Notes under the pieces: model-generated
Database searches by the model: none
Told to the model about the DNA's origin: nothing
Seen by the model: only the letters and a program-made list of their open reading frames with translations
Shown here: positions 11,700 to 61,042 of the stretch, one piece after another
Layout: every line of letters starts with the position of its first letter
How positions within the stretch are numbered: position 1 is the first letter of the stretch
Position numbers and translations under genes: made by a program
Assembly: GCF_020099275.1 (NCBI RefSeq)
Contig: NZ_CP083646.1
Coordinates: 620,001 to 684,000, forward strand
Reading direction: 5' to 3'
DNA: 64,000 nt
From: Corynebacterium falsenii
Lineage (GTDB): Bacteria > Actinomycetota > Actinomycetes > Mycobacteriales > Mycobacteriaceae

Positions 11700-11709
11700 C
11701 GACGCCACA
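11700..11709 (-). repeat. Dispersed TGTGGCGTCG element
   Basis: One of four copies with T in the first position (the rest begin GG). It lies on the minus strand in the gap between the YbhN and DUF3054 genes, upstream of the DUF3054 start. Confidence 0.7.
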
Positions 11710-11781
11710 ACCTTTCCTCTCCACACCCTCCCCGAGGTATGGCACGCCAGCCCCGGTTCGGGGCTCTAGGTTGGGGCAGTG

Positions 11782-12828
11782 CTACGCAGAGGCGGAGTCT
11801 TGCGCGATTCCGGCCGGTTCGGTCTCCTCGGCAGCGCGGGGGTTAGCCAGCTTGGTGACGAAGAAGACGATCCAGCCCACCAACGCCAGCCCGATGAAGC
11901 TAAGCATGCGGAACACGATCACCGAGGCGAAGGCCTGCACGGAGGTCATGGCGCCAAAGCCTACCAGGGTACTCGTCAGCGCGAGATCGACCGGACCCAA
12001 GCCACCGGGCGTGACCTGCGCCTGGCCAGCCAGCTTGGCGGTGAGGAAGCTCAAGATGACACCGGCGACCGGCGGTTGCGCGCCGATGGCGAAGATGCAG
12101 GCCATGAGGCACAGGATCTCGAAGATCCAGTTCAGCAAGGACGCGGTAATCGCGGCGCTCAGGCGCGGCAGCGGCAGCTTCACGGCGGACAATTGCTGAC
12201 CCAAACCGAGGATCGCTTCGGTGAAGCGATCCTCCGGCTTGCGCTGCCAGCGGTTGAAGCGCCGAACCTGGCGAAGCAGCCAGTTCTCGACCTGCCGCGG
12301 GTGGGTGGCCACCCAGTTCGTGGCGATAGCCAAGGCGATGACGCCCACCACGGACAGCGCCAGCGTCAGCGGCTTCACGGTAAGGCCAAGGAAGAAGATC
12401 GAACCGATCGCCAAGATGGCCATGCCACCGCTGGCCAGCACGCCAGACAGCACCATGTACCAGCTGGCGATGACTGGGGTGGCGCCCCACTTCATCTGCT
12501 CGCGGAAGATCATGGCGGCGGACAGGGCAGGGCCACCGGGGAAGGTCGCGGACCAGGCATTGGCGGCCAGCCCCAGCATGTTCGCGCTGAGGCGCTTGAC
12601 CTGCACCCCAGCGCTGCGCATGAGGATCACCATGACCTCGGCCTGCGCCACCATCGACAGGGCCAACGCGAGGACAGCTAGGCTGATCCACTTGTTGTTG
12701 GCGTGTTCCAGCTCCCGCCAGCCATCGCCGATGAAGTGCAAGTGCTCCCGGGCAATGACCCCAATCGCAACGATCAGGATCAGAGCCAGGGCAGCTCTCA
12801 CGGAGGGTTTCTTGAGAAAGGACATCAT
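11782..12828 (-). CDS. YbhN/UPF0104-type integral membrane protein
   Basis: A 348-residue protein with about eight membrane segments and the UPF0104/YbhN pattern (related to the lysyl-phosphatidylglycerol synthase membrane region). It includes GGPALSAAMIFREQMK near 115 and TPGGLGPVDLAL near 275. Its ATG overlaps the stop of the upstream mmpL gene by 4 nt (ATGA), implying coupled translation. The mycobacterial region around mmpL3 also holds a membrane gene of this size (Rv0204c). A role in lipid transport or flipping together with the exporter is an inference. Confidence 0.8.
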   Translation of the reverse strand: MMSFLKKPSVRAALALILIVAIGVIAREHLHFIGDGWRELEHANNKWISLAVLALALSMVAQAEVMVILMRSAGVQVKRLSANMLGLAANAWSATFPGGPALSAAMIFREQMKWGATPVIASWYMVLSGVLASGGMAILAIGSIFFLGLTVKPLTLALSVVGVIALAIATNWVATHPRQVENWLLRQVRRFNRWQRKPEDRFTEAILGLGQQLSAVKLPLPRLSAAITASLLNWIFEILCLMACIFAIGAQPPVAGVILSFLTAKLAGQAQVTPGGLGPVDLALTSTLVGFGAMTSVQAFASVIVFRMLSFIGLALVGWIVFFVTKLANPRAAEETEPAGIAQDSASA

Positions 12829-15287
12829 GAGTGGCGATCACCAGAATCATCGCGGCGATCGTTGACGCGCTTCATGAGCTCGCTAAACGGCAGCGTGCGT
12901 TCGTGGCGGGAAGGATCGATGAGTTCGCCGGACGCATCGGTCTCGCCAGCGCGGCCAGCACCGCTACCCATTGCGTGGTGGTTGTACTGATCGTGATGCT
13001 CTCTGCGATCCTTGCGGTCCCGGTGTTCCCGGTGCTCCATGGCTTCCGCGAGGTCGGCCACCCGCAGGCGGGAGCCCGTGGTTTCCGCTGCGGATTCGGG
13101 GCGAGCACCAGCACCGGCGCCCACTCCAGCGCCGACTGCAGCTGGCACTGCAGCGGAGTGCCCGTCGAGTTGCTCGTTGTGGCCCACCTTCTCAGACAAC
13201 TTCTGTACCCAGCGCGGAGCCCACCAGTTGTCGTCACGCAACAAGTGCATTACCGCAGGAACGAGGAACATGCGGATGACTGTGGCGTCGAGAATAAGGG
13301 CAATGACCATGCCGAACGCGATGTACTTCATCATCACAATCGACGAGAACCCGAACGCCCCACAGACCACAATCATGATCAACGCCGCAGCGGTGATGAT
13401 GCTGCCCGTCGTGGCGGTGCCGAAGCGGATCGCCTGATCCGTCGACGCGCCGCGCGCCCGCGCCTCCACCATGCGGGAGACGAGGAAGACCTCGTAGTCC
13501 GTCGACAGGCCGAAGAGGATCGCGATGATGAGCACCAGCACGGGGCTCATCAGCGGACCCGGGGTGAAGTTGAACAGATCCGCGCCCATGCCGTCCACGA
13601 AAATGAGCGTGAGCATGCCCAACGTGGCGCCGATGCCCAAGATGTTCATGATCACCGCCTTGGCCGGGATGATCAGCGAGCCGAAGATCATCGCCATGAG
13701 CACAAAGCTGACCACCGCGATGTAGAGCAACATCCACGGCAGCTTGTGGAACAGCGCCTCGATGGACTCGACCTCCAGCGCCGGGGTGCCCGCCACGAGG
13801 ACAGTCGCGCCGGGTACGTCCAGATTCTCGAGCTCGCGGACGATCCGGCCGTTATCCTCACGATTGACGATGCCGGTGGACAGTACCGTGACATTGTCCT
13901 TGGTGGGACGGGTGACCTGGAACGGTCCGGTGAGGCCCTCGATCTGGTAGGTCTTCTGGTAGACGGCAGCGATGGCCTGGTTATCGCCCTCGATGACCAG
14001 CTTGATGGGGTCGGTACGGAACTTCGGGAACTCCTCGTTGAAGTGCTCCTGCGCAATGCGGGTCTGGTTAGTCGGCGGCAGGTACGTCTCGTTGATGCCA
14101 CCCAGCTTGATCCCGGCAATCGGCACGGTCAGGGCCAGCAAGCCAGCGACCACGAGGAACGTGAGCTTCTTCGAGTGACGCATCGCGAAGGCGGGGATCT
14201 TGCCCCACATGCCGCTCACCACCTCCGCGCGCTTGCGCGGGCGGCGGCGGATGGCGAACTTATCGATGTTCTTGCCTAGCAGGGCGAAGATGCTCGGCAG
14301 CACCGCAACGGACAGCAGCGCGGCCAAGCCCACGGCGGACATTGCGCCGAACGCCACGGACTTCAGGAACGCCTGCGGGAAGATCAACAGGCCGGACAGT
14401 GCCACGGCCACCATCGCTGCGGAAAACAGCACGGTCTTACCTGCCGTGGCCGTGGTGTTGCGCACGGCCGTGCGCACGTCGTTGCCTTCCTCCAGCTCCT
14501 CGCGGAAGCGAGACACCATGAACAGGCCGTAGTCGATGGCCAGGCCCAGGCCCAGCAGCGTGACCACGGACTGGGCGAACACGTTGATCTGCGTGAACTG
14601 CGCCAGGATGGACAGCACACCCATGGATCCCAGGATGGACAGCGCGCCCACCAGCAGCGGGATCAGCGCAGCGACCACGCCGCCGAAGACGAACAACAGC
14701 AAAATACCCACCGCGGGCAGGGCGAAGATCTCCGCGCGGTGAATATCCCCGGCCATGCCATCATCGAGGGCATCGGAGATCGCGGTGGCACCGGCGATCT
14801 CCACGGTCACACCGGGGGCCTGGATGGACTCCAGTTCGCTCTTGATCTTGCGGAAGTTGATGAGCACATCGTCTTCCACGCCTTGGAGGGACACAATGGC
14901 GAAGGCCGCTGTGCCGTCCTCATTGGCCAGCACGGCCGGGCCACCGTTGAAGTAGCTGGTAATGCTCGCGACCGCATCGGGATGGTTCGCCTTGAGCGCA
15001 TCGAGCTGGGCGCCGATATCCTGCTTCACCGCAGGGGACGTGGCCGATCCCGGCTGGTCGCCGTTGACCAGCACGATGACGTCTCCGTTGGCATCGCGGC
15101 CGAACTCCTCCTGCTCCAGCTGCGCAGCGCGGGTGGACTGCGAGTTGGGATCGTCCCAACCCTCCTGGCTCATGCGGTCGCCCAGTTGCAGCCCAAAAAT
15201 GGCATAGAGAGCCACCACGGCAGAGATGATCACCAGGGGGATCAATCGGCGGAACCGGTATGCGGTATCGCCCCAACTCATGAACAC
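12825..15287 (-). CDS. cmpL1: MmpL3/CmpL1-type RND transporter (trehalose monomycolate exporter)
   Basis: An 820-residue MMPL-family protein: one N-terminal helix, a periplasmic loop (~45-170), a five-helix block, a second helix and loop (~380-530), another five-helix block, and a cytoplasmic tail. Helix 4 has GLGLAIDYGLF, where the Asp-Tyr pair is the proton relay in this family; the matching helix in the second half has LFGLSTDYEVFL. The tail (~690-820) is rich in Ala and Gly, then His, Arg, Asp and Glu. GTG 15287 is chosen because AAGGAGGA lies just upstream; the frame opens earlier at 15344. Neighbours (NYN protein, trmB, Rv0209/Rv0210-like genes, pckG) match the mmpL3 locus of mycobacteria, supporting trehalose monomycolate export. 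Confidence 0.9.
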   Translation of the reverse strand: MFMSWGDTAYRFRRLIPLVIISAVVALYAIFGLQLGDRMSQEGWDDPNSQSTRAAQLEQEEFGRDANGDVIVLVNGDQPGSATSPAVKQDIGAQLDALKANHPDAVASITSYFNGGPAVLANEDGTAAFAIVSLQGVEDDVLINFRKIKSELESIQAPGVTVEIAGATAISDALDDGMAGDIHRAEIFALPAVGILLLFVFGGVVAALIPLLVGALSILGSMGVLSILAQFTQINVFAQSVVTLLGLGLAIDYGLFMVSRFREELEEGNDVRTAVRNTTATAGKTVLFSAAMVAVALSGLLIFPQAFLKSVAFGAMSAVGLAALLSVAVLPSIFALLGKNIDKFAIRRRPRKRAEVVSGMWGKIPAFAMRHSKKLTFLVVAGLLALTVPIAGIKLGGINETYLPPTNQTRIAQEHFNEEFPKFRTDPIKLVIEGDNQAIAAVYQKTYQIEGLTGPFQVTRPTKDNVTVLSTGIVNREDNGRIVRELENLDVPGATVLVAGTPALEVESIEALFHKLPWMLLYIAVVSFVLMAMIFGSLIIPAKAVIMNILGIGATLGMLTLIFVDGMGADLFNFTPGPLMSPVLVLIIAILFGLSTDYEVFLVSRMVEARARGASTDQAIRFGTATTGSIITAAALIMIVVCGAFGFSSIVMMKYIAFGMVIALILDATVIRMFLVPAVMHLLRDDNWWAPRWVQKLSEKVGHNEQLDGHSAAVPAAVGAGVGAGAGARPESAAETTGSRLRVADLAEAMEHREHRDRKDRREHHDQYNHHAMGSGAGRAGETDASGELIDPSRHERTLPFSELMKRVNDRRDDSGDRHS
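13281..13290 (+). repeat. Dispersed TGTGGCGTCG element inside mmpL
   Basis: The core is followed by AGAATAAGG. It lies antisense within the mmpL coding region near the last membrane block. Confidence 0.6.
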
Positions 15288-15380
15288 TGTGGGGTCCTCC
15301 TTCGGGTCAGACTGGGCTGGGCGGTCGTGTGATGTGGCGACCACCCGGGTGCGCGGTGTGGTGCCACCACGCTGGTGGGG

Positions 15381-16913: not shown

Positions 16914-17900
16914 GTGACCAAGACGGTCTCAATTATCGGCCCGGATAGCGCACGGGTGACTGCGTGCGCGGAGAAGCTGCGGGAGCTCGTGCGCCCCGGC
17001 ACTACGGTCATCGTGGGCGCGGGTCCGGAGGCGCGGCCGGATGTTGTCGTGGCGGTCGTGGGCGATCCCACGGCCGAGGATGTGGATATCGCGCAGGCGG
17101 TCTCTGAGTCCGTGGGGTTTGTTGTTCTTATTGTCGACGCCACACCCCGGCCCTGGCCCCACTATCCCGGGTGGCACTCGGTGGAATCCGTTGAGGATGC
17201 GGCCACGCTGGTGAACCGCGCGTGTGTGGATCTGACTGCCTGGGCCGGCGATGCCCAACGGGCGGACGCCGAGCGGCTCGAACGGGTGCGCATGGCGATC
17301 CGACTGGCCTCGCACCGGATTTCCGCGGAGCTGCTGGGGGAGGTGTTAGGGGAGTCACCGGGCGAGCAGGCGAAGGCGCGCGACCGGAAGGGCGGTGCGG
17401 GCTCGGGCGCTGGCGTGAGCGAGTCCGAGGCCGAGCAGCTCCACCACCGCTTCGTGCAACGGCTGCGCGTCGCGGTGGCGGAGCAGGGCGTGTGTTTTCC
17501 GCGCGTGGACACGGGGAGCGCAGCTTTGTCCGCCGCACCTCACTCACCTACCGCCCCGCATTCATCCCCGCGACCCACGCGCGAACGCATCTCTGGCTGG
17601 GCCCTCGCCGCCGCCGGTGGCCTGGCCGGCGCGGCGGGGGTGGGAGCACTGACGTACCGCATCACCGGCAGCGCCTTCGCGGCCATCGTGGCGGCGCTGC
17701 TCGTGTGGTGCGCGCTGGTCGGGGTGCGGCTGTGGCTGGTCCGGTCGCGACACCGCGCAGCCCAGCGGCGTGCCAACGCCCAACGCCTCCGCGAGGTGTG
17801 GATCGCGCTCGTCGCGGACGTCATCTCCCGCCTCCACATCCCCCGCATCGCCGACACCATCCCGACCCTCCCGAGAGGACTGAACACCCATGCCCGTTGA
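16914..17900 (+). CDS. Conserved actinobacterial membrane protein (Rv0209-like position)
   Basis: A 328-residue protein without an assigned family. The N-terminal ~110 residues look like a Rossmann or P-loop-like fold (alternating strands, [18 protein letters not shown], then [10 protein letters not shown] and [12 protein letters not shown]), but no complete Walker A motif is visible. A polar middle is followed by two membrane helices (~225-275, [17 protein letters not shown]) and a basic C-terminus. GTG starts at 16881, 16902 and 16914 are all in frame. 16914 has the best upstream GGGGGAA and avoids overlap with trmB. The position between trmB and the pck-side gene matches Rv0209. The next gene overlaps by 11 nt. 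Confidence 0.7.
17135..17144 (-). repeat. Dispersed TGTGGCGTCG element
   Basis: Minus-strand copy inside the Rv0209-like gene; the core is followed by ACAATAAGAAC. In the host protein it encodes the variable stretch VDATP. Confidence 0.6.
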
Positions 17901-18498
17901 GCACTACTTTGACTTCTCCGGCGACGGATTCAACGACCCGCTCGCCCCCCTCGAACCCATCGGCCCCGAAGGCCTCACCACCAGCTACGGCAACCACGGC
18001 TTCCTGGTGGACCCGCTCGGCGGCATCGATGACCCCTCCGACGCCACCAGCATCCGACCCCCCATCATCCCCGAGGGGCCACCGCCAGCGAACCCCCTGG
18101 AGCACCTCATCAACAGCCCCCACGTCCAGCTCGCGCCTCACCCCGAAGCGGGTGGAGAGGCCAACAGTGAGATGGCGTATCTGTTTTTTGATTACAACGG
18201 CCAGCGGTACGCCGTGGGAGCCCCTACCACAACTGGCACTGTGGAATCCATCACATTGGCGGACGACACCACCATGAACATCCTCTCCGACACGAACGGA
18301 GACGGGCGGGTCGACTACCTGTCTTCCGTCTGCTTCCAGGGAGGATGGTCAGCCTGGAGTGCTGTGGAGGACGAGGAGGCTGGTGGCGTCGAAGAAAAGA
18401 CGAGCGATAGCGAGCAACCCCCCGCTACCCCCGATGGTGGTCAGCAAGAGTGGAAAACGGAAACGTGGAAATGTGTGGAACGGGGGGACTGGGGCTAG
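17890..18498 (+). CDS. DUF6802-type protein (Rv0210-like position)
   Basis: A 202-residue acidic protein of unknown function. It begins with [18 protein letters not shown]. Residues ~95-155 form a compact beta region (YLFFDYNGQRYAVG, then LSDTNGDGRVDYLSS). The DTNGDGRVD stretch resembles a calcium-binding loop (D-x-D/N-x-D-G), seen in the sequence but not tested. The C-terminus ends in a Trp-containing polar tail. It has no signal peptide. The ATG overlaps the preceding gene by 11 nt. The tail carries a copy of the dispersed GGTGGCGTCG element, suggesting it is under little constraint. Confidence 0.72.
   Translation: MPVEHYFDFSGDGFNDPLAPLEPIGPEGLTTSYGNHGFLVDPLGGIDDPSDATSIRPPIIPEGPPPANPLEHLINSPHVQLAPHPEAGGEANSEMAYLFFDYNGQRYAVGAPTTTGTVESITLADDTTMNILSDTNGDGRVDYLSSVCFQGGWSAWSAVEDEEAGGVEEKTSDSEQPPATPDGGQQEWKTETWKCVERGDWG
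18039..18048 (-). repeat. Dispersed GGTGGCGTCG element
   Basis: Minus-strand copy within the DUF6802 gene; the tail is G-rich rather than A-rich. Confidence 0.55.
18382..18400 (+). repeat. Dispersed GGTGGCGTCG element with A-rich tail
   Basis: The core is followed by AAGAAAAGA. It lies in the variable C-terminal tail of the DUF6802 protein, where it reads as GGVEEKT. Confidence 0.75.
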
Positions 18499-24460: not shown

Positions 24461-25696
24461 TTAGTGAACGGGGGTAACACGTTGGGACGTTAAATAGGCT
24501 GCGCGCGTATCCAACCCCATGGCGACCTCCGAGATCAGCGGAGCCACGAACCGCTGCCGATGGTTCGAGTCAGACGCAGCACTGGCGGCGAAGTTTAAGG
24601 CAGCCAACGCGGAAAGGATGAACGACACCTTGATCAGGGTCGGCGCGAAGGGAATCCGGTAGTGCTCCCACAACGTCTTGTCCACCTGGGCCTGGGTCCA
24701 TTGGAAAATGGTGGCGTCGGATACAGAAAGCTGGCCAAAAGCAAGGAAGAACAGGAACACCAACAGTGCGAAAAAGAGGGACTGAATAATCGTCACCAGG
24801 CTGGGGATGAGAACAATGTTGAGCCGCTCGGAACGGCGCAGATCGTCCGCGTGGTTGCTGAGGAGCTCCTGGACTTCGTCGCGGGTGGTGACGGACACGA
24901 GCAACAGTGTGAGCACTCCCAGGGCGGCCGCGACCTGAAGAATGCGCGGCCACGTGAGTGGCAACATGACTTGCCAGATCTCGGCGTTGTAAAACAGGAA
25001 AAGGCTGGCCAGGGTGAACAGGGGCAAGGTGCGCGCGATCATTGGGCCGAGGCTGAAAAGCTCTTGGCCCACGCGATGGATCGACCAGGACAGCACCGAG
25101 CCGATACCGATATACGTGGCGCCGAAGATGACCGCCGTGATGGCGACGCCCCAGAACAAAGCGGATAGCTTATCCGGCGAGGGAAACACCGGCAGCAAGA
25201 TCGTGACCAGCGCGCCGGCCACGCCCACTGCGGAGGCGAAGGCGTGCGACCGCTTGCGGCTGGTCAGCACCGCGGCAATGATGCCGAGAATGGGGGTTGC
25301 GACGAAGAAGATGACCGCGCCGCCCAGCGGGGCATAAACCTCCTCGGGGAGGTCCAGGTCCGACTCGCCGTCCGTGATCGGGGAGTCGGCGAGGATCACC
25401 ATGGCTCGATTGAGCAAGGCGATGGTGATCATGAAGCCTGCGACGAGCCACAGGGGAACGGCCACGCGGCGGAGCAGGTCCTGGGCGCGGTCGCGGGCGG
25501 AAAGAACCGACGGGAGGCCGAGCTTGCGCAGGGCAGTGACGAGCTCGCGGTGGGACGTAGGGGGAGCCGTGGTTACGGAGCTGGGCTGGGCGGGCTCAGT
25601 GTAGGTGCCGTCGAGTTGGTCGGCGACAGGGGAGATGTCGCCGGAGTCATCCGGGGAAGGAGAAGCAGACTGCGGAGAGCTGTTGATCATGTACAT
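24461..25696 (-). CDS. Integral membrane protein of unknown function
   Basis: A 411-residue protein not assigned to a known family. A polar, Ser/Pro/Thr-rich N-terminus (~65 residues) is followed by about nine hydrophobic segments from residue ~78 on (WLVAGFMITIALL, AVIFFVATPILGIIAAVL and others). A charged loop at ~280-295 (NHADDLRRSER) lies in the middle, and the C-terminus is short and cytoplasmic. The first ATG (25696) and the ATG two codons later both lack a clear ribosome site. It has no functional neighbour: the YkvI gene upstream on the same strand ends 48 nt away. A copy of the dispersed element lies inside it. Confidence 0.7.
   Translation of the reverse strand: MYMINSSPQSASPSPDDSGDISPVADQLDGTYTEPAQPSSVTTAPPTSHRELVTALRKLGLPSVLSARDRAQDLLRRVAVPLWLVAGFMITIALLNRAMVILADSPITDGESDLDLPEEVYAPLGGAVIFFVATPILGIIAAVLTSRKRSHAFASAVGVAGALVTILLPVFPSPDKLSALFWGVAITAVIFGATYIGIGSVLSWSIHRVGQELFSLGPMIARTLPLFTLASLFLFYNAEIWQVMLPLTWPRILQVAAALGVLTLLLVSVTTRDEVQELLSNHADDLRRSERLNIVLIPSLVTIIQSLFFALLVFLFFLAFGQLSVSDATIFQWTQAQVDKTLWEHYRIPFAPTLIKVSFILSALAALNFAASAASDSNHRQRFVAPLISEVAMGLDTRAAYLTSQRVTPVH
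24710..24719 (+). repeat. Dispersed GGTGGCGTCG element
   Basis: The core is followed by GATACAGAAAG; it lies antisense within the membrane-protein gene. Confidence 0.6.
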
Positions 25697-25744: not shown

Positions 25745-26947
25745 CTACTCAGCCTTATCAGCCGCGCTGCTCGTACCTGTCGCGCTGTTCTTGTCGGCCG
25801 CGCCGGACGTGTTGCCCGAGCCACCCTTCTGCCCCTTGCGCAGCGGCCACGACCGGCGTACGCGGAAGTTACTCACCCACTTGATCTGGGTCCGGCGCCG
25901 CAGATACTCAACGCTGAGCAGCAGGAACAACACCGCCCCGATGTAACCCAGCACGGGGAACACATAACCCACGATATTGCTGAACCCCCAGAACGACAGC
26001 CCAAAAGCCACCACTGCCGTGACACTGTAGACCACATGAAAACGCATGCTCCTGCGATCCTCCACGAAACGGCACGTGAACGCGTACGTCATGCCCAGCG
26101 CACTGTTGAAGATCATCGCGTAAATCGCGATAGACATCAGCGTGCCAGCCGCGCCGCTGACGATAGTCACCGAGGACAACATGGGGAATTGGTCCATTCC
26201 GACGTCGCCCACATTGACATAAATGGTGAAGGCCACCATGACCAAAAGGATGCCGAACAACAAGCCACCCGCCACACCACCGATGCCAGCCACGCGGGTG
26301 TTAATGAACTCGCCGCCGATGACCAAGCCCATGGAGACGATAACGATCATGGAAAACCCCAGGTAGCTGATCACCGCGATGACCACATTGGGCAGAGTAC
26401 TGCTCGTGCTGGCCGCAGCGGCGTTGAGGGAATCGAGGCTCGTGGTGGCGTCGGAGGAAAAGGTCCAGACAGAATAGACGAAGGCGACGATGATGAGGAT
26501 CACCATCAGCGGAGTCGTCCACGCGATGACCGAGCTGATGCGCTCGCTGGGGGCGTTGCCCGCGATGAGGACCAGGACCAAGAGCAGCACCGACCCGACC
26601 CACGTGGGCAAACCCCACATCTGATTGAGGTTGGAGCCGCCGCCCGCGAACATCACCGTGGACAGGCTGAACACCGTGGCGATGACCGCGATATCCAGCA
26701 AGCGGGCGGGAATGGGGCTAAACGACCGCTGGAACACCACATTGTGATCGCTGGGCTGGTGAAACGACCCCAACTGCAACAGGATTCCGCCGGCCCAGCC
26801 CATGAGCAGCGCCACAACAACCGCCCCGATGAGGCCACCCACCCCGAAGTGAACGAAAAACTGCAGCACTTCCTGACCCGACGCGAAGCCGGCCCCCACC
26901 GACAATCCCACGAACGCGAGCGCTACGGTGACGATCCTCTTGAACAT
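25745..26947 (-). CDS. YkvI-type membrane transporter
   Basis: A 400-residue membrane protein with about ten helices of the YkvI family, distantly related to the amino-acid/LeuT-fold transporters. The N-terminus VTVALAFVGLSVGAGFASGQEVLQFF (read in parts) has a broken-helix GAGFASGQE motif near residue 20 that in LeuT-like proteins lines the ion and substrate site. ATG 26947 follows GGAGAG; the frame opens 18 nt earlier. The C-terminal ~45 residues are polar with Lys, Gly and Ser. It is divergent from budA. Substrate unknown. A copy of the dispersed element lies in the middle. Confidence 0.78.
   Translation of the reverse strand: MFKRIVTVALAFVGLSVGAGFASGQEVLQFFVHFGVGGLIGAVVVALLMGWAGGILLQLGSFHQPSDHNVVFQRSFSPIPARLLDIAVIATVFSLSTVMFAGGGSNLNQMWGLPTWVGSVLLLVLVLIAGNAPSERISSVIAWTTPLMVILIIVAFVYSVWTFSSDATTSLDSLNAAAASTSSTLPNVVIAVISYLGFSMIVIVSMGLVIGGEFINTRVAGIGGVAGGLLFGILLVMVAFTIYVNVGDVGMDQFPMLSSVTIVSGAAGTLMSIAIYAMIFNSALGMTYAFTCRFVEDRRSMRFHVVYSVTAVVAFGLSFWGFSNIVGYVFPVLGYIGAVLFLLLSVEYLRRRTQIKWVSNFRVRRSWPLRKGQKGGSGNTSGAADKNSATGTSSAADKAE
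26444..26462 (+). repeat. Dispersed GGTGGCGTCG element with A-rich tail
   Basis: The core is followed by GAGGAAAAG. It lies antisense in the YkvI-type gene, in an extramembrane loop coding part. Confidence 0.65.
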
Positions 26948-29592: not shown

Positions 29593-29602
29593 GGTGGCGT
29601 CG
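29593..29602 (+). repeat. Dispersed GGTGGCGTCG element
   Basis: Intergenic copy just 55 nt from the fadB stop; the tail reads GCTCAAAAA. Confidence 0.65.
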
Positions 29603-32039: not shown

Positions 32040-32050
32040 TGTGTTGCTCC

Positions 32051-32068
32051 TTTTTCTCGACGCCACCC
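32051..32068 (-). repeat. Dispersed GGTGGCGTCG element with A-rich tail
   Basis: Minus-strand core (32059-32068) followed by AGAAAAAG. The tail merges into the fadB ribosome site (AAGGAG), so the element forms part of the fadB leader. Confidence 0.8.
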
Positions 32069-41892: not shown

Positions 41893-44800
41893 CTCAGCCC
41901 GCCCCACGGGCCACGCGCGGCGAGCAGCACCAGCACGAAGCTCGAGGTGCCGAACGCCACGGGGAACGCGTACCGCCTGATGCCTCTGCGTGCCGAGGGC
42001 TCACTGGTGGTCACTGCAGCGACCGGGAGGCGGGATGGCGTGGGGTGGCGTCGAGAAGAAAAGACCATGAGCGCTGCGGCCAGGAGCAACAGCACCGCCG
42101 CGGCGGCCCCGGCCAGCAGCCACGCGCGGTACAGGTGCGTACCCGCGAACGTGATCGTGACCAGGCCAGACGCACCCGCGGGCACAATCCAACCCTGCTG
42201 CCAACCGTTGACCGTGACGGGCGTGAGGCGCGTGCCGTCCAACGTGGCCACGCGGCCGGGGTTCGCCTGCGACGGGGAGAACAGGATGCGCTGCTGATCC
42301 GAGGCGGCGAGGTTCGTGGACTGCTCGCCGTGGCCGTCCGGGGTTCCAGCCGGGGTGTCAGACTGGGTGAGCGGCTGCGCGGACGGGGTCTCGCGCACGG
42401 CGGCGCCATACAGCGGCTCGGCCACGGTCAGCGACACCCACCGATCCTTGGCCTCCAACCTGTGCGGGCCCGCGGTGAGGGTGAAGACCTCTCCGCAGGG
42501 GTGTGCCACTCCGTCGATGGTCACGCGAGCATCCTGGCCCCGCACGCAGCGATCCGTGTGCACCACCACCGGAAGCTCACCGGGGCGCTCCGGGGTGCCG
42601 CCGCCGACCGTGGCGGGCACGGTGAACTCGCGGGTCATGACACCCTCGGGGATCTCCTGGCCGTAGACCCAGCGGTTCGGCGCCGGGTGGGTCGGGTCGG
42701 TGGGCCACTCCGGCAGCGTGGGCACCCGGTGGGGAGTGACGTTCGTGGTGGAATCGCCCTGCGTGCTGATGACCGTGGCCGAAGAAATGCCGAAGTCACC
42801 GAAGGTGCCCACGATCGTCACGCGCACGGTATCGGCCAGGCCAGCGGGCACGGTGATCACGTTATCCTCGCCGGAGCGCACCGTGGCAGTCGTGCTGGCG
42901 ACCACGGACCCCTGTGCCTGCGAGGGGTCGATGCGCTCACCGATCTGATCGGGGTGCTGGTCGTTGTGGCGCAGGTACGTGGTGACCTGCACGCGCGCCA
43001 GCGACCCTTGGGTGCGCAGCTCGAGGCCCAGGTTGGCGTAAGCCTTCGGGAGCTGGAACTCGATGTACTGGCCCGCGGCTTGCCCGGGGGCGGGGCGCCA
43101 CGCGGTGAAAGTGGAACCATCGACCGCTGAGGTGGCCGAGGAGTAGGTCTCGGCGCCTCCGAATGAGGTAGGCGACGCCGCCGTGGACGATGCCACCACG
43201 GCCCCACCGGTGCCCACGACCTGGGTGTAGTCGCTGGCGGGGAGGGGAGTGTTGTCCGGGCTGGAGGTGTTGCGGACCGGGTAGTCGGTGATGGGGTTGA
43301 GTAGCGAAGAGGGGTCCTTGGATGACCGGATCTCCGAATCCGCGTGGGTGACGTTGCCGTAGTTGTGCTCCCGGAGGGCAGGGGTGTCGGTGGCGGTCTG
43401 GGATGGCGCCAGGGCGGCATCGTCCGGGGCTTGCCCGGCGAGGATGCGGGTGCGCGGGGTGCCGGTGCGGCCCAGGGCGCCGTCAGCGGAGTTGAGGCGG
43501 GGGAGGGCTTCGGGGCCGGCGGAGACGACCTCGACGTTGCGGGTGTCGATGATGCGCAGATCGCCGGCGGTGCCAGCAGCGGGAGCTGGGGTGGGGTCGA
43601 CCCGGTAGATCGTGATCTGCTCGTCTGTGGCGCCCGACTTGTCGCGGTTCTGACCGCTCTCGCCGCCAAAGGTGGCCACGGGTGTGAAACCGCCGGAGTA
43701 TTGCAGCGTTTTGTCCACCTGCTTGGCGCCCGGGGTGTCAGCTGCCCGCGTGAGGTCCCTGCGGACCAGAACGTAACCCACGCCCTGGCTCCACAGGGTG
43801 CCAGACAGTGAAGGGATGGCCACGCCGGTGTTGAGCTGCTGCTGCACACCGTCGAGCGCACGGATGGCCTCCGGCTGCACCAGCGGGACGGAATCGCGGA
43901 CCACCCACGGCACGTCGAGCAGTGGCTGAGCGGGTTCGTCCCTGGTGTTGCCCCAGGTCTGGCGTGCAAACCGGGCCTCCGGCAGGATCATCGTGCGCGG
44001 GGTGACATGCCCCGGCGAGGCCTGAGCATGCTCGTTGAGCCACCGCGCGGCCTCGATCCAGTAGCGGGGGACGCCGCGGTAGGCGTCGGCGGCGGGAAGC
44101 TGCCCGGACCACCCGGGGGCGGTGGCCACGGCCAGCAGCAGGCTCACGGCGATGGCCTTGACGACCTGCGGGTTTTTCTCCGGGTTGCGCCAGGCCACCC
44201 ACTTGTTCCGCGAACGCCCCGGCCATTCCAGGCCACGGAGCCCGTGGGCGATGCCCACCACCAGGGCGATGCGCACCACCGGATCGAACTTGTGCAGGTT
44301 ACGCAGCGGGGCGCCGGCACCGTCGAGGAACTCCCGGACAGGTTCGGCGATGGGGGAGAAGGGGGCCACGGCCACGATCATTGCCGACATGCCCACCAGC
44401 AGGATGAGCAGCCAGCGGCCAGCAAAGGCCAACCCCGGCCGGGACAGCCCCCACAGGCCGATGAGGGCAACGATGAGCGTGGCGACGATGAACACTGGCT
44501 CGGTGACCAGTGCATTTCCGGCCGGGCGTTCTGCGGAGATGAACGGCGTCCAGCTCGTGGCTCCGCGCAGCACCTCCATCGGGTTGAGCCAGCGCGTGGT
44601 CAGCGAGGCCGACTCGATGTAGTCGGTGAACGGAGGAGAGTACTTGCCCAGCAGAATCAGCGGGCCGATCCACCAGAAGGTGGCGAGCACTCCGGCGGGG
44701 ATCCACCACATGCCGAAGTACAGAGCGCGCCGCCGCTGGGCTGCTCGCAAGACTGCAGCGCGCCGCGAGCCGGCGGCACCGGCGGCACTGCTGGCACCGC

Positions 44801-45572
44801 TGCTTCCCGCGCCGAAGCCCACCACGGCCGACAGCCAAAACAGTGCCGCCGGAATAACAGCCACGGCCGTGGCCACCGCGTTAACCGCGCCGAGGCACAG
44901 GATCGCCACGCCGCCGAGCAACCCCTGCGTTGCGAGATAGCGCTTCGGCAGGCGGCCGCCCGGCTCGCGAGCACTCGCCCCGGTGGCGCTGCCAGCCCCG
45001 GTAGCGCTGGTAGCGCTGCCAGCACCACCTGCGCTGCTGTGCCGCCCCGAATAACTTCCCGCACTCACCGCGCGCACCACGAACAGCAGCACCCACGGCA
45101 CGAGCGCGCACACCCACGCCTCGGAACTAATCGCTCCAAGAGTGGTGAGGATGCGCGGCGACAGCGCAAACAGGATGCCCGCGATCACGCGCGAGCTGCG
45201 GCTGCCGATCCCCCGATCGCCAGCCGCCTCCAGCAGCCGCACCGTTCCGGCAAACGCAAGCCACAGCAGCAGCGTCCACCACAAGCGCTGCACAATCCAC
45301 GCCGGGAGCCAGCTCAGCAGCGCAAAAAACAAGCCGTGCGGGAACAGGTAACCGTAGGCCTGGTTCTGCAGCTGCCCCAGCGGGAACGTGTCCGTCCACG
45401 GGTAGAGGGCTTGGCGGAGGAACCCCCACGGGTCAGCCGTGAGGTCGAGCTTCGTGTCCGCGCTGATCAGCCCCGGCGATTGCAGAAAAGCAAAAAGCCC
45501 CCATGCCAGAGCACACAGCGCAAGGGTCCTACGGCTGAGTGGGGCGTGTGGGGGCGTGGTGGCGTCGACCAT
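41727..45572 (-). CDS. aftD: Arabinofuranosyltransferase AftD
   Basis: A 1281-residue GT-C enzyme adding arabinofuranose branches to arabinogalactan and lipoarabinomannan from decaprenyl-phospho-arabinose. About eleven N-terminal helices carry the GT-C loop with DTKLDLTADPWGFL (~40), where acidic residues near the membrane are expected to be catalytic. A large extracytoplasmic part follows, with a discoidin-like carbohydrate-binding region (~810-960, SSATSAVDGSTFTAWRP) and another beta domain (~1010-1120). C-terminal helices end the protein. ATG 45572 has an excellent GGAGGATCC site; ATG 45614 lacks one. The next gene upstream encodes a DUF2613 protein, as in Rv0236c-Rv0236A. Confidence 0.93.
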   Translation of the reverse strand: MVDATTPPHAPLSRRTLALCALAWGLFAFLQSPGLISADTKLDLTADPWGFLRQALYPWTDTFPLGQLQNQAYGYLFPHGLFFALLSWLPAWIVQRLWWTLLLWLAFAGTVRLLEAAGDRGIGSRSSRVIAGILFALSPRILTTLGAISSEAWVCALVPWVLLFVVRAVSAGSYSGRHSSAGGAGSATSATGAGSATGASAREPGGRLPKRYLATQGLLGGVAILCLGAVNAVATAVAVIPAALFWLSAVVGFGAGSSGASSAAGAAGSRRAAVLRAAQRRRALYFGMWWIPAGVLATFWWIGPLILLGKYSPPFTDYIESASLTTRWLNPMEVLRGATSWTPFISAERPAGNALVTEPVFIVATLIVALIGLWGLSRPGLAFAGRWLLILLVGMSAMIVAVAPFSPIAEPVREFLDGAGAPLRNLHKFDPVVRIALVVGIAHGLRGLEWPGRSRNKWVAWRNPEKNPQVVKAIAVSLLLAVATAPGWSGQLPAADAYRGVPRYWIEAARWLNEHAQASPGHVTPRTMILPEARFARQTWGNTRDEPAQPLLDVPWVVRDSVPLVQPEAIRALDGVQQQLNTGVAIPSLSGTLWSQGVGYVLVRRDLTRAADTPGAKQVDKTLQYSGGFTPVATFGGESGQNRDKSGATDEQITIYRVDPTPAPAAGTAGDLRIIDTRNVEVVSAGPEALPRLNSADGALGRTGTPRTRILAGQAPDDAALAPSQTATDTPALREHNYGNVTHADSEIRSSKDPSSLLNPITDYPVRNTSSPDNTPLPASDYTQVVGTGGAVVASSTAASPTSFGGAETYSSATSAVDGSTFTAWRPAPGQAAGQYIEFQLPKAYANLGLELRTQGSLARVQVTTYLRHNDQHPDQIGERIDPSQAQGSVVASTTATVRSGEDNVITVPAGLADTVRVTIVGTFGDFGISSATVISTQGDSTTNVTPHRVPTLPEWPTDPTHPAPNRWVYGQEIPEGVMTREFTVPATVGGGTPERPGELPVVVHTDRCVRGQDARVTIDGVAHPCGEVFTLTAGPHRLEAKDRWVSLTVAEPLYGAAVRETPSAQPLTQSDTPAGTPDGHGEQSTNLAASDQQRILFSPSQANPGRVATLDGTRLTPVTVNGWQQGWIVPAGASGLVTITFAGTHLYRAWLLAGAAAAVLLLLAAALMVFSSRRHPTPSRLPVAAVTTSEPSARRGIRRYAFPVAFGTSSFVLVLLAARGPWGGLSYAGDSWLVAGATGVAVASVVLRSVLRWVPRSRQRASTPFHQELIQRREGSSTSE
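42044..42064 (+). repeat. Dispersed GGTGGCGTCG element with A-rich tail
   Basis: Core (42044-42053) followed by AGAAGAAAAGA; antisense in aftD, in the cytoplasmic loop between two C-terminal helices. Confidence 0.85.
45558..45567 (+). repeat. Dispersed GGTGGCGTCG element at the aftD start
   Basis: The core overlaps aftD codons 2-5 on the opposite strand and is followed by ACCATGG, which includes the aftD start codon. Confidence 0.65.
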
Positions 45573-46566: not shown

Positions 46567-47742
46567 ATGCGCCGTTACCTTGTTGCCCTATCCGCGATCT
46601 GTTGTCTGGCTGTTGCTGGTTGCTCCTCATCGTCGACGCCACCAGACTCCACCACCTCCCCGTCCGCCTCGGTGGAATCGACCGGGTCCGCTGCCTCGGG
46701 GGAGGCCACGGGGGATGCCGGTGCTCCGGGGACGGCATCCTGTGACCAGATCAAGGACCAGTCCACGGAGAAGCTGGCGGCCCGCCTGTTGGGAGTGGGC
46801 GTGACGGATTACGCCTCCGCCGAGCAGGCAGTGGACCTAGGTGTGCGGCACCTGTTCATTGGATCGCAGACGGACAAGTCCATCCTCAACGGCCAGGGCG
46901 ACCCTAAGCGCAGCCTCGCGGAGTTGCAGCGGCGCGCGGGTGAGCCGCTGACGGTGAGCGTGGACGAGGAAGGCGGCTTGGTGCAGCGCCTGACCTCGTT
47001 GATCGGTGAGCTGCCGAGCGCGCAGCAGATGGCGCAAACGATGACTCCCGATCAGGTGCGCGACATGATGCGCGTCCACGGCGAGAAGATGCGGGCGCTG
47101 GGTATCACGGTGGACTTCGCTCCGGACGTGGATCTGGCCGGCGGCCAGGAGATCTCCGACAACGCGATCGGTTCCCGCGCGTTCAGTGCGGACCCGCAAA
47201 CGGTTGCGAACTACGGCCGCGCCTACGCGGAGGGCCTGCTGCAGGCGGGCATTACTCCGGTGCTCAAGCACTTCCCCGGCCACGGGCATGCACAGGGCGA
47301 TTCCCACAATGGTGAAGTCAAGACCCCGCCGTTGGATCAAATGGAGCAGGCGGACATGATTCCCTTCGCCCAGCTGGTGAGCATCCCCGGCGTGGATGTG
47401 ATGGTGGGACACGTGGAGGTTCCGGGGCTCGGCGCGCCGGGCACGCCGTCGTCCATCAACCCCGCTGCCTACGAGTTGCTGCGCAAGGGCGGCTACGCGG
47501 GCGCGCCGGGATTCAACGGTGTGGTGTACACCGACGATCTGACGGGCATGAAGGCCGTCACGGATAAGTATCCGGGCGGGTTGGCCGCGGTGGCGGCGCT
47601 GTCTGCGGGTGCGGACATTTCCCTGGCTGCGGCAGGTGCCGTGGATATTCCCACGGTGGTGAAGGAGATCTCTGCCGCCATTGATGATGGGCGGATTGAC
47701 CGGGCGCGCGCGGTGGAATCGGCGCAGCGCTCCTGCCGTTAG
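46567..47742 (+). CDS. lpqI: LpqI-type beta-N-acetylglucosaminidase lipoprotein (GH3)
   Basis: A 391-residue exported lipoprotein: signal MRRYLVALSAICCLAVAGC with lipobox Cys19, a Ser/Thr/Pro linker, then a GH3 domain. The NagZ-type motif KHFPGHGHAQGDSHNG (~237) carries the His of the catalytic dyad, and VVYTDDLTGMKA (~318) the nucleophile Asp. It should release GlcNAc from cell-wall fragments, as part of muropeptide recycling. ATG 46567 is the start. A dispersed repeat lies in the linker after the lipobox. The same gene (Rv0237) follows aftD in M. tuberculosis. Confidence 0.9.
   Translation: MRRYLVALSAICCLAVAGCSSSSTPPDSTTSPSASVESTGSAASGEATGDAGAPGTASCDQIKDQSTEKLAARLLGVGVTDYASAEQAVDLGVRHLFIGSQTDKSILNGQGDPKRSLAELQRRAGEPLTVSVDEEGGLVQRLTSLIGELPSAQQMAQTMTPDQVRDMMRVHGEKMRALGITVDFAPDVDLAGGQEISDNAIGSRAFSADPQTVANYGRAYAEGLLQAGITPVLKHFPGHGHAQGDSHNGEVKTPPLDQMEQADMIPFAQLVSIPGVDVMVGHVEVPGLGAPGTPSSINPAAYELLRKGGYAGAPGFNGVVYTDDLTGMKAVTDKYPGGLAAVAALSAGADISLAAAGAVDIPTVVKEISAAIDDGRIDRARAVESAQRSCR
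46634..46643 (-). repeat. Dispersed GGTGGCGTCG element
   Basis: Minus-strand copy in the low-constraint linker of the GH3 lipoprotein; tail ACGATGAGGAG. Confidence 0.65.
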
Positions 47743-57180: not shown

Positions 57181-57234
57181 AACATCACCTCCACGTAAAC
57201 CTCCGTTTACTTCGTTCGGGTAAGAATGAACCCT

Positions 57235-58617
57235 ATGCGTATGACAGTTTTCGGTACGGGGTATCTCGGTGCCACTCACGCGGCCTGCATGGCTGAGCTG
57301 GGGCACGAGGTACTGGGAGTAGACGTTGACGAGGCCAAGATCGAGGCCCTAGCAGCAGGGAGGGTTCCCTTCTTCGAACCCGGGCTCCCAGAGATTCTTC
57401 GCCGGAATATCGATAACGGCAGGCTCTCCTTCACCACCGATTACGACCGCGCCGCCGAGTTCGCGAACGTGCACTTCATCGGCGTGGGCACCCCTCAGCG
57501 CAAGGGTTCTTATGCCGCAGACACCACGTACGTCCACGCCGTGATCGAGCGGCTCGCCAGCGTGGTGGAGGGCGATCACCTCATCATCGGAAAATCCACC
57601 GTGCCCGTCGGGACAGCCACCGAGCTGCAGTCCCGGGCGGATGTGTTGCTAAGGGAGCGTGGTGGCGTCGAGAATTACGGCGAAGCCGACAAGCCCACTC
57701 CGACCATGACCGTGGTGTGGAACCCGGAGTTCCTCCGCGAGGGGCACGCGGTGAAGGACACGCTGCACCCAGATCGGATCGTGGTGGGCGTGCCGGACTA
57801 CCTGGCCGGCAGCGGCGAGGAACCGCAGAGTGTGGGCACGATTCGGGAGATTTATGCGTCTGCGCTGGGTGAAGGCACGCCCTTCCTCGTGATGGATCTG
57901 CCGACCGCGGAGCTGGTGAAGGTCTCGGCCAATGCGTTCTTGGCCACGAAGATCTCGTTCATCAACGCCGTCTCCGAAGTCTGCGAGGCCGCGGGTGCGG
58001 ATGTGACGGCGCTCGCCGATGCCATCGGGTTCGACGAGCGCATCGGTCGGAAGTTCCTCGGGGCCGGGCTCGGATTCGGCGGCGGCTGCCTGCCGAAGGA
58101 CATCCGCGCGTTTATGGCCCGGGCCGGTGAGCTGGGTGCGGACCAGGCGCTCACGTTCCTCCGCGAGGTCGACGCGATTAACATGCGGCGCCGCGAAAAG
58201 ACCGTGGACATGGCCAAGGACGCGCTGGGCGGCAGCCTGATCGGGCGCAACGTGACCGTGCTCGGCGCGGCGTTCAAGCCCAACAGCGACGATGTGCGCG
58301 ATTCGCCGGCGCTGAGCGTGGCCGGATCGCTCTCGCTCGCGGGCGCGACCGTGACGGTGTACGACCCCGAGGCGATGGACAATGCTGCGAAGCTATTCCC
58401 CACGCTGAACTACGCTGCCAGCACCGACGAGGCGCTGGCGGACGCCGAGCTGGTCATCGTGGCGACGGAGTGGAAAGAGTTCCAGAACCTCGATCCGACC
58501 CGCACGAAGCAGCTCGTCGCGGGCACCCCGAAGGTCCTCGATGGGCGGAACTGCCTGCCGCGTCAGGAGTGGATTAACGTGGGCTGGGAGTTCCTGGCGC
58601 TGGGGTTAGGCGCGTAG
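57235..58617 (+). CDS. ugd: UDP-glucose 6-dehydrogenase
   Basis: A 460-residue NAD-dependent enzyme oxidising UDP-glucose to UDP-glucuronate. It shows the Rossmann loop VFGTGYLG at the N-terminus, the catalytic Cys in GFGGGCLPKD (~283) and a third domain with FKPNSDDVRDSPAL (~346). In-frame ATGs occur at 57226, 57235 and 57241. 57235 is preferred because a TAAGAAT box ends 7 nt upstream (probably leaderless). The product could feed glycan or glycolipid synthesis. It ends only 9 nt from the convergent alaT stop. A dispersed repeat lies inside at 57661. Confidence 0.93.
   Translation: MRMTVFGTGYLGATHAACMAELGHEVLGVDVDEAKIEALAAGRVPFFEPGLPEILRRNIDNGRLSFTTDYDRAAEFANVHFIGVGTPQRKGSYAADTTYVHAVIERLASVVEGDHLIIGKSTVPVGTATELQSRADVLLRERGGVENYGEADKPTPTMTVVWNPEFLREGHAVKDTLHPDRIVVGVPDYLAGSGEEPQSVGTIREIYASALGEGTPFLVMDLPTAELVKVSANAFLATKISFINAVSEVCEAAGADVTALADAIGFDERIGRKFLGAGLGFGGGCLPKDIRAFMARAGELGADQALTFLREVDAINMRRREKTVDMAKDALGGSLIGRNVTVLGAAFKPNSDDVRDSPALSVAGSLSLAGATVTVYDPEAMDNAAKLFPTLNYAASTDEALADAELVIVATEWKEFQNLDPTRTKQLVAGTPKVLDGRNCLPRQEWINVGWEFLALGLGA
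57661..57670 (+). repeat. Dispersed GGTGGCGTCG element in ugd
   Basis: In-frame copy in a variable loop (RGGVENYGE); the tail AGAATTACGG is only partly A-rich. Confidence 0.6.
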
Positions 58618-59923: not shown

Positions 59924-60874
59924 CTACTGGTTGGTCGGGCCTCCAGTGGTGACGGGAGGTTGCTGCGCCGTGGGCTTGGCCGTTGGTTGCTGGGTGGGCT
60001 GAGATGTTGGCTGGGTCGGCGGCTCATTGGTGCCGGGGTTACCAGTTTCCGGCTGCGATGGTGCCTCAGACGGTGTTCCTGGCTGCTGCTCCACTGCGGA
60101 TTCCTCGGGAGTATCTTCGCTCGTGGTCCTGCTCGTTGCGCCTGAGCCACCGCTGGAACCGGATCCGGATTGCGAGCCCGATCCGGAGCCATAACCACCG
60201 CTAGAGCCGCCCGTGTCTCGACCACCGCGAAGTGCGTTCTCCTTATCGTCGTACTTACCGGTGGTGGTCGCTGCAGGGTAGGAGGGGGTCACCTGTGTCG
60301 CTTCTCCCACGCCACCGGTCGTGGTGGTCTTGGCGCTGCTCATGACGGCAAACGATACGATCGCGCTGAGGAGGGCGAGCACCAGCCCAACAGCCAGGAT
60401 CCAGGCCCAGACTGGCATGAAATCTCTGGCCTTCTTCCAGATCGAGGTATTCTCGCCGCCAGTCTCCTGAGCCGCAGCCTTGTCGCCGTCGGATTTTTCG
60501 CTGTCGGCCTTCTCACTGTCGGACGTATCGCCGGTCTGCGTGGAGCTCTTAGCGCCCTGTGTCTTGTCATCCGTCGCGTCGGAATCAGCAGTCTTGTCAG
60601 TCTTTTCAGACGTGGCGCCGTCGGTTGGCTTTTTGAGCGGGGAGGATTCTTCTTCCGCATTGACCGCAGGGATGACGGCCGTATCGGCACTGTCCAACGA
60701 GTCTCGACCGCCGGTAGAGAGCTTGTTCTCTCCGTTGTGAGGGACGTTGGCACCCTGAGATGTTGCCTGTGCGTCCTTGGTGTTGGACGACGGTGTTGCC
60801 TTCGCCGGGGGCTGGGCATCGGCGGAGCCGTTGGCGTTCGGTTGTCCACCTTGTGTGGAATCGTCAGCAGTCAT
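59924..60874 (-). CDS. Low-complexity single-pass membrane protein, unknown function
   Basis: A 316-residue protein. An acidic cytoplasmic part (~1-150, rich in Asp, Ser, Thr, Lys and Glu) is followed by one helix (WAWILAVGLVLALLSAIVSF, ~158-177). The outside part is rich in Ser, Gly, Thr and then Pro/Gln/Thr (repeated QPT and SQP). It has no recognisable domain, and both ends look disordered. Composition suits a wall-spanning stalk or spacer. It lies between alaT and the Rv0338c-like gene on the same strand. Confidence 0.68.
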   Translation of the reverse strand: MTADDSTQGGQPNANGSADAQPPAKATPSSNTKDAQATSQGANVPHNGENKLSTGGRDSLDSADTAVIPAVNAEEESSPLKKPTDGATSEKTDKTADSDATDDKTQGAKSSTQTGDTSDSEKADSEKSDGDKAAAQETGGENTSIWKKARDFMPVWAWILAVGLVLALLSAIVSFAVMSSAKTTTTGGVGEATQVTPSYPAATTTGKYDDKENALRGGRDTGGSSGGYGSGSGSQSGSGSSGGSGATSRTTSEDTPEESAVEQQPGTPSEAPSQPETGNPGTNEPPTQPTSQPTQQPTAKPTAQQPPVTTGGPTNQ

Positions 60875-61000
60875 GGAGCCAGTATGTACCTTCAGATAAC
60901 GAGCGAGGGGGGATTTCTGCGGATATTTCTACTGTAGTCAAGTAGCCCCCGATATCCCATGTGCCCTGTTCAGGGCGGGTCCCTTTTCTTTCCTCACCTT

Positions 61001-61042
61001 CGACGCCACAAGGCCCGGCACCTATCGGTGCCGGGCCTTGTG
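61001..61042 (-). terminator. Strong hairpin downstream of the Rv0338c-like gene, fused to a dispersed element
   Basis: A perfect 16-bp stem (61007-61022 and 61027-61042) with a 4-nt loop lies 33 nt past the stop codon. There is no T-run. The dispersed TGTGGCGTCG core (61001-61010, minus strand) overlaps the base of the stem. A homopolymer of ten G (61065-61074) touches the stop codon. Confidence 0.65.

Follow-up and report, generated by a model that had tools for sequence, protein, structure and literature searches.

Why a single ten-base word should recur throughout one stretch of a Corynebacterium falsenii chromosome, in both orientations and usually with A-rich sequence at its 3′ side, is the question raised by the window analysed here, which is the whole 64-kb stretch at positions 620001-684000 of a 2,677,377-bp genome assembled as one contig. 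The word occurs in two spellings, GGTGGCGTCG and TGTGGCGTCG. The answer favoured here, with a probability of roughly 0.58, is that the element belongs, as its local dialect, to a set of DNA uptake-specificity sequences spread over the genus, which would form a third family analogous to the DNA uptake sequences (DUS) of Neisseria and the uptake signal sequences (USS) of Haemophilus.

An abundant oriented word in the window and its genome

Searches with KGTGGCGTCG, which covers both spellings, recover 17 exact copies in the window (13 of GGTGGCGTCG and four of TGTGGCGTCG; ten on the + strand and seven on the - strand), compared with an expectation of 0.76 (standard deviation 0.87, with a maximum of four across 100 dinucleotide-preserving shuffles). 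An earlier note, made by eye from the letters of the window, had reported the same 17 copies where about one would be expected, and the exact recount bears it out; 16 of its 17 coordinates match, while one copy starts at 32058 and not at 32059. That note likened the word to DNA uptake sequences, rated a site for a nucleoid protein or a small mobile element as equally possible, and proposed as checks the genome-wide count, codon bias in one reading frame, the flanks, strand bias, orthologous sites and other Corynebacterium genomes. The genome-wide count lies far above expectation, with 494 copies of KGTGGCGTCG (253 + 241) and 86 of the reversed-word control (47 + 39), and the tail-bearing form KGTGGCGTCGRVNNNAA is found 144 times with a single reversed control. 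Within a 464-kb sample of this genome, consisting of the window and 20 stretches and holding 93 motif copies, GGTGGCGTCG alone occurs 63 times where an order-3 model predicts 7.1.

The profile of these 93 copies, numbered from the first G of GTGGCGTCG, consists in its 3′ part of that core, A or G at +9 and A-rich sequence until about +19, with an A frequency of 0.31 to 0.56 at every position from +9 to +18. This agrees with the A-rich sequence described in the earlier note after most copies; a clear A tail is missing at some window copies, for example those at 18039 and 45558. Profiling also reveals what that note had missed, namely a G-rich left flank from about -25 to -3, with T almost never present at -7, and a preference for T at -2 (66%). 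No shared sequence extends past about 20 nt in the 93 copies and in relatives, the flanks being alike in composition only.

Codon usage and placement in genes

Genes were called with a simple in-frame hexamer model in two runs with slightly different boundaries, and the calls are approximate. Coding copies in the 464-kb sample number 66 to 67; shuffling of synonymous codons leaves 20 (standard deviation 3.8 to 3.9), the reversed word occurs 17 times, and all six frames are used (antisense-2, 30; sense-0, 18; sense-1, 12; the others two to three each). Intergenic sequence adds another 26 to 27 copies but just two of the reversed word, and the density is 357/Mb outside genes and 170/Mb inside. 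The synonymous-shuffle test was applied to 17 groups, comprising the window's genome and relatives, with 30 shuffles each. A word of each group's own dialect exceeded the largest of the 30 shuffles in 17 of 17 groups, a comparison that is partly circular in that the words were chosen from the same data, and the common pattern GGCGTCVNNAA did so in 14 of 17 (the exceptions being G138, G300 and G470). Codon bias, whether in one frame or in general, and a recurrent peptide were both considered as the cause of the excess and are rejected by these shuffles.

Dialects across the genus

A total of 242 Corynebacterium genomes were examined, and most dialects were derived from about 80 kb per genome through k-mer enrichment in sampled stretches relative to a Markov model and to synonymous shuffles; some spellings were pieced together by eye where enriched 10-mers overlap. 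GGC(G/A)TCGnnAAGC is the most frequent form in the genus, and the inner core shared by the dialects is GC(G/A)TC. The C. jeikeium-like group has several dialects, among them the window's GTGGTGGCGTCGa with an A-rich tail. The tailed form of the window's word is strong in eight of the 242 genomes (G000, 144 copies; G126, 107; G283, 63; G265, 49; G377, 48; G460, 45; G138, 29; G300, 14), with nine copies or fewer in all others. The view that the element is confined to these eight genomes was wrong; they share only the window's dialect, and other dialects were found later. The locus of the AftD gene identifies G126 as C. suicordis, G283 as C. dentalis, G409 as Corynebacterium sp. ACRPH and G289 as sp. 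HMSC08A12, while loci labelled C. jeikeium are present in G471 and G472 and a locus labelled C. falsenii 355_CFAL in G473. The dialects read as follows:

C. jeikeium group: GGGGGCGTCA(A/C)TAA
C. falsenii 355_CFAL: GGTGGCGTCCCCA
G300: GGGTGGCGTCGC
G448 and G169: GGCGTCGATAAGC
G316: GGCGTCGAGAAGC
G309: GGCGTCGACAAGC
G381: GGCGTCG(G/T)CAAG
G189, G273 and G346: GGCATCGGCAAG(C)
G253: CATCGAYAAGC
G179: CGTCAAAAAGC

The G form, GGCGTCGnnAAGC, reaches at least 50 copies in 165 of the 242 genomes, at least 200 in 131 and at least 500 in 32, with a highest count of 976 (G431; control 5). Summed over the 165 genomes it occurs 59,922 times, 29,966 forward and 29,956 reverse, compared with 985 for the reversed word. 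The A form, GGCATCGnnAAGC, reaches at least 50 copies in 27 genomes (for example 578 with a control of 2 in G271, 507 with 1 in G189 and 481 with 0 in G378), of which 17 are beyond the 165; the idea that the motif is lost wherever the GGCGTCVNNAA excess is missing was wrong for these 17. That pattern is at least three times as frequent as its reverse in 20 of the remaining 60 genomes, bringing the total over at least one count threshold to 202 of 242.

No comparable excess of GGCRTCGnnAAGC is found in any of 246 genomes from other genera of the order, in which the maximum is 78 copies (33 reversed, in a 7.4-Mb genome) and ratios reach about 6 only with small counts (13 vs 2, 19 vs 3). Neither the G nor the A 13-mer is present in pooled loci of Rhodococcus (323 kb), Mycolicibacter/Mycobacterium (310 kb) or Williamsia (190 kb), and pooled Gordonia loci (225 kb) hold one G and two A 13-mers.

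Other words in excess were encountered in these searches. Genome G272 (L197-L200) carries a second abundant repeat, CAGGCAGATC / ATCTGCCTGA, with AGGCAGAT present 42 times where 0.6 are expected (80 kb) and GCCTGAGGCA-type words likewise in excess, and G321 (L121-L124) has a separate word, AATGTCGTTA, in seven copies where 0.1 are expected (80 kb). In the Mycolicibacter/Mycobacterium loci L045-L064 (a pool of 13), TGCTCAAGCA occurs 33 times where 2.7 are expected (310 kb), an excess that may reflect shared ancestry because these loci are orthologous.

Polarity, spacing and conservation of the sites

No replication polarity is seen in the window's genome, with 34 forward and 31 reverse copies in the first half and 13 and 15 in the second, nor any leading-strand polarity in 11 relatives, with 117 copies on the positive-GC-skew strand and 111 on the other. 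Density in the window's genome is low at 1.28-1.56 Mb (L010-L013), at six copies in 80 kb compared with 87 in 384 kb elsewhere (P about 0.001 for a region chosen after looking). The GC skew changes sign slightly further along, after the stretch at 1.54 Mb and before that at 1.67 Mb. A general mid-chromosome dip is absent in the 11 relatives, for which the origin position is assumed: the eleven stretches taken at 1.4 Mb contain 53 copies, the last stretch of each genome (eleven in all, at 1.8-2.0 Mb) 48, and the twenty-two at 0.3 and 0.8 Mb 127. Copies are spaced a little more evenly than by chance, as 10.8% of 325 adjacent gaps are below 500 bp where a Poisson process gives 16.4%, and 2.5% are below 150 bp where it gives 5.2%; these figures are descriptive, pooling gaps within stretches from 14 genomes. 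A perfect inverted motif pair was observed in G272 (L198:258-289), consisting of GCTTATCGACGCC and GGCGTCGATAAGC 6 nt apart and resembling Neisseria DUS terminators.

Conservation at orthologous sites was assessed at one 23-kb locus of the C. jeikeium group, where nucleotide identity is 87 to 94%. Tailed sites keep an unchanged GGCGTC core in 10 of 10 cases, compared with 12 of 39 same-composition words with the same tail (Fisher P 8e-5), 889 of 1835 same-composition words overall and six of 15 untailed GGCGTC words; the reciprocal comparison gives 11 of 12 for the tailed core and 15 of 35 for the same-composition words (Fisher P 0.006). Core identity at this locus is 98.6 to 100%, whereas positions +6 to +8 reach only 80 to 83%. 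At the site in alignment column 1755 the tail is altered by substitutions and gaps with its A-richness kept, and at that in column 24422 the core is lost in one relative. In the more distant C. falsenii 355_CFAL (63% identity) most motif sites lie at other places, one of them where 8 nt are inserted in comparison with C. jeikeium. The five counted patterns are absent from two phages (92.9 kb), although these patterns may not match the dialects of the phages' hosts.

Candidate genes for DNA uptake

The window's genome contains a comEA-comEC operon that encodes ComEA (SLBB and helix-hairpin-helix domains) and ComEC, with the gene for a DNA polymerase III delta subunit next in line. It also encodes a Tad-type pilus ATPase, matched by TIGR03819 at 403.6 bits. 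Across the genus, ComEC is present in 241 of 242 genomes, and 232 of the 242 have a TIGR03819 match above the cut-off. Natural transformation of Micrococcus luteus, an actinobacterium, requires Flp pili together with ComEA and ComEC, according to the available text of two reports (PMC6370729, PMC8467076).

A candidate DNA uptake code

A role in DNA uptake is favoured because the word is oriented and asymmetric, is equally shared between strands without replichore polarity, and occurs both in and between genes; because species dialects share a core, and this core is conserved at orthologous sites amid changing surroundings; and because the word is absent from the two phages examined while ComEC and a Tad-type ATPase are encoded genus-wide. 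This set of features is similar to the signature published for DNA uptake sequences, as described in the accessible parts of three sources (PMC2397512, PMC5031613, PMC12616744), and the likeness drawn in the earlier note thus appears, on sequence grounds, to be the most probable of the three readings it had offered.

Under such a role, extracellular DNA would be caught by a surface receptor, most likely a Tad/Flp-type minor pilin or a mycomembrane partner, that would read the oriented core GGC(G/A)TC along with a clade-specific edge and tail, the tail being nnAAGC in most species and A-rich in the jeikeium-like group. The captured DNA would be handed to ComEA and ComEC and then recombined. Fragments bearing the word would enter preferentially, so that recombination would spread and repair copies, a molecular drive with an expected outcome of hundreds of copies per chromosome in neutral places on both strands; as the specificity of the receptor drifted, the word would drift along with it and give rise to dialects. 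The wider proposal, to which somewhat better than even odds are given, is that Corynebacterium possesses an independent DNA self-recognition code, which would add a third family to the known uptake sequences, the first among Gram-positives, with at least half a dozen dialects, and that most of the genus is now or was recently transformable by means of a Tad-type pilus and a sequence-reading mycomembrane receptor.

Several observations weigh against an uptake function. Forty of the 242 genomes fall below all three count thresholds, six of which (G138, G179, G265, G300, G460 and G470) nevertheless show a dialect in tailed-word counts or sampled stretches, and a clear dialect was not seen in six others of the forty that were sampled (G054, G275, G351, G438, G439 and G358, the last sampled over 20 kb only). 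The presence of ComEC or the Tad ATPase gives no contrast with the motif across the 242 genomes, a presence/absence correlation being impossible because both genes are near-universal. Among the matches listed, ComEC is interrupted by a single in-frame stop in 13 genomes. Twelve of these (G281, G326, G345, G413, G414, G433, G450-G453, G467 and G468) hold about 390-505 G-form copies each, and the thirteenth, G283, carries the window's dialect; the gene in these genomes may be split or recently lost. Site conservation comes from a single locus, and the contrast is weaker in the reciprocal comparison because untailed GGCGTC is intact there in five of seven cases. Two plasmids (78 kb) are not word-free, since they hold two copies of the 13-mer and eight of GGCGTCVNNAA (none reversed), although their hosts' dialects may differ. 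Inverted pairs are rare, with eight of 325 adjacent pairs closer than 150 bp, five of them in -+ arrangement. Finally, no report that Corynebacterium is naturally transformable turned up in the literature searched, which leaves subscription papers and preprints mostly outside.

The strongest competitor of an uptake sequence, though a good deal less probable, is a chromosome-wide binding site for a Corynebacterium-specific nucleoid or chromosome-organising protein that would have co-evolved with its site. The even spacing and the drift of dialects around a fixed core would follow from such a site too, and the density dip at 1.28-1.56 Mb in the window's genome speaks for it, whereas a general mid-chromosome dip is not seen in the 11 relatives. 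Many nucleoid and chromosome-organising proteins bind palindromes as dimers, but the Corynebacterium word is asymmetric, and fast dialect change of an essential chromosome site would seem costly; the equal standing that the earlier note gave to this explanation is not retained. Frequent oriented words in chromosomes can also be recombination or replication signals, either a Chi-like hotspot that acts on a helicase-nuclease or a sequence of the kind that orients FtsK, and the left part of the word may read GCTGGTGG at site 18382, which is the E. coli Chi. This explanation is unlikely: an FtsK-type sequence requires polarity by definition, a Chi-like signal is disfavoured because polarity is missing from the window's genome and the 11 relatives, and the core separates the Chi-like part from the A tail and the AAGC block.

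Dispersal in both orientations, often in linkers and leaders, would equally suit a small mobile or selfish element scattered by transposition, such as a miniature inverted-repeat transposable element (MITE) or a repetitive extragenic palindromic (REP)-like repeat, and the 355_CFAL site at the 8-nt insertion could be read in this way. A mobile repeat is disfavoured, however, because the flanks are not shared: no longer unit can be aligned beyond the word, and among the jeikeium relatives the sites are fixed in place with a nearly invariant core and changing tails, leaving this second alternative of the earlier note very improbable. An artefact, produced by base composition, by codon pairs or by a common peptide such as GVEK or GIGK, retains next to no probability. 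It could draw on the dominance of two or three reading frames and on the 3-nt periodicity of the upstream G, which sets many copies in codon register, but it is opposed by the excess over synonymous shuffles, by the excess outside genes, the antisense copies and the near-zero whole-genome reversed controls, and by the lack of a comparable excess in other high-GC genera.

Sequence-specific DNA uptake has been described in species of two proteobacterial families, according to the accessible part of a 2016 review (PMC5031613). A literature search with the coverage given above found neither this motif nor any uptake sequence in Corynebacterium or another Gram-positive, and five spellings of the word had no full-text match. 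A third, unrelated family in Gram-positives with a mycomembrane would, if real, be a clear case of convergent evolution; it would predict natural transformation in Corynebacterium, offer a practical rule for designing DNA with which to transform C. glutamicum and its relatives, and provide a broad range of dialects from which the receptor could be traced through co-evolution. Even with another function, a word of up to 976 copies per genome that is confined to one genus among the genomes examined would point to a strong, unexplained sequence-reading system.

The 17 sites of the window

The window sites were compared with Pfam domain matches and open reading frames (ORFs). Most copies with a nearby Pfam match lie outside it, in keeping with the earlier note's statement that copies avoid conserved domains, which fails for the copy at 57661. 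The encoded peptides include SDAT, LDAT, VDAT, FDATP, GGVE, RRHP and STPP among others, many of them in linkers or termini. The sites are:

11700..11709, - strand, TGTGGCGTCG: sense, at about residue 6 of ORF 11232-11726 (DUF3054), ahead of the domain match (43-156)
13281..13290, + strand, TGTGGCGTCG: antisense in the MMPL-family gene 12825-15344, encoding LDAT
17135..17144, - strand, TGTGGCGTCG: spanning the 5′ end of ORF 16043-17143 (Methyltransf_4)
18039..18048, - strand, GGTGGCGTCG: antisense in ORF 17890-18498, encoding SDAT; clear A tail missing
18382..18391, + strand, GGTGGCGTCG AAGAAAAGA: sense in ORF 17890-18498, encoding GGVE in an acidic linker
24710..24719, + strand, GGTGGCGTCG: antisense in ORF 24461-25696 (without Pfam match), encoding SDAT
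26444..26453, + strand, GGTGGCGTCG: antisense in ORF 25745-26965 (without Pfam match), encoding SDAT
29593..29602, + strand, GGTGGCGTCG: in the gap separating ORFs 28336-29487 and 29658-32066
32058..32067, - strand, GGTGGCGTCG AGAAAAAGGAGCAACACAATG: in the likely leader of the 3HCDH/ECH gene 29658-32066
34022..34031, + strand, GGTGGCGTCG: sense in ORF 33825-34796 (without Pfam match), in a low-complexity Ser/Asp/Lys stretch after Cys
38003..38012, + strand, GGTGGCGTCG AAAAAGAAAG: antisense in ORF 37328-39388 (without Pfam match), encoding FDATP
40869..40878, - strand, GGTGGCGTCG AACGAAAAAGAAAAA: sense in ORF 40630-41613 (without Pfam match), encoding GGVE
42044..42053, + strand, GGTGGCGTCG AGAAGAAAAGA: antisense in the AftD gene 41727-45614, encoding RRHP near the C-terminus, outside the GT-C match (38-773)
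45558..45567, + strand, GGTGGCGTCG: antisense in the AftD gene, encoding VDAT (residues 16-19), outside the GT-C match; clear A tail missing
46634..46643, - strand, GGTGGCGTCG: antisense in the glycoside hydrolase 3 gene 46330-47742, in a Ser/Thr/Pro linker after Cys, before the domain match (198-467)
57661..57670, + strand, GGTGGCGTCG: sense in the UDPG/MGDP dehydrogenase gene 57226-58617, encoding GGVE at about residue 146, inside the NAD-binding match (4-191)
61001..61010, - strand, TGTGGCGTCG: between ORFs, on the 3′ side of a strong terminator-like hairpin, with TGTGG pairing into the stem

The true start of ORF 16043-17143 is uncertain because its Methyltransf_4 match begins only at residue 175, and ORF 17890-18498 has a DUF6802 match below its cut-off. 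The A-rich tail of the copy at 32058-32067 holds the likely ribosome-binding site of the 3-hydroxyacyl-CoA dehydrogenase-like gene, with the start read by eye. The terminator-like hairpin at 60985-61070 on the - strand is very strong (GGCCCGGCACC stem; energy z -6.2), and its 3′ arm includes the TGTGG of the copy at 61001.

Comparison with known systems

The Corynebacterium word resembles Chi and the FtsK-orienting polar sequences (KOPS) as a frequent, oriented, short word and differs from such signals in having no replichore polarity. With M. luteus it shares a setting of the same classes of machinery genes, namely ComEC and a Tad-type ATPase nearly throughout the genus and ComEA in the window's genome; for that species the term 'uptake sequence' is absent from the available text of PMC8467076, and that of PMC6370729 links none to it. 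The USS of Pasteurellaceae consist of AAGTGCGGT or ACAAGCGGT with less conserved flanking blocks and comprise more than one dialect within the group, as given in the accessible part of PMC12616744. The likeness lies in a core followed by an A/T-rich tract, which is strongest in the jeikeium-like dialects including that of the window, and in several dialects within one group; the Corynebacterium word is, however, unrelated to USS in sequence and has just one A-rich tail, with G-rich sequence to its left.

The DUS of Neisseriaceae are the 12-mer ATGCCGTCTGAA and its dialects, with the receptor ComP; an invariant inner core CTG is described for them in the available portions of PMC2397512, PMC12616744 and PMC5031613. 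Population genomics of Neisseria has shown tracts of recombination enriched in DUS, tract lengths that fit the distance between copies, and genomic islands that lack them (PMC2397512). The Corynebacterium word, known here from sequence alone, is unrelated to it and bipartite (GGCRTCG-nn-AAGC), its host is a high-GC Gram-positive with a mycomembrane, and the inverted-pair terminators that are frequent in Neisseria are rare. The pili differ as well, being of the Tad type in Corynebacterium and of type IVa for the DUS of Neisseriaceae. What the two would have in common, as far as these sources describe DUS, is a short, oriented and abundant word that is enriched in permissive places, is itself conserved, and varies in dialects around an invariant core, here GC(G/A)TC.

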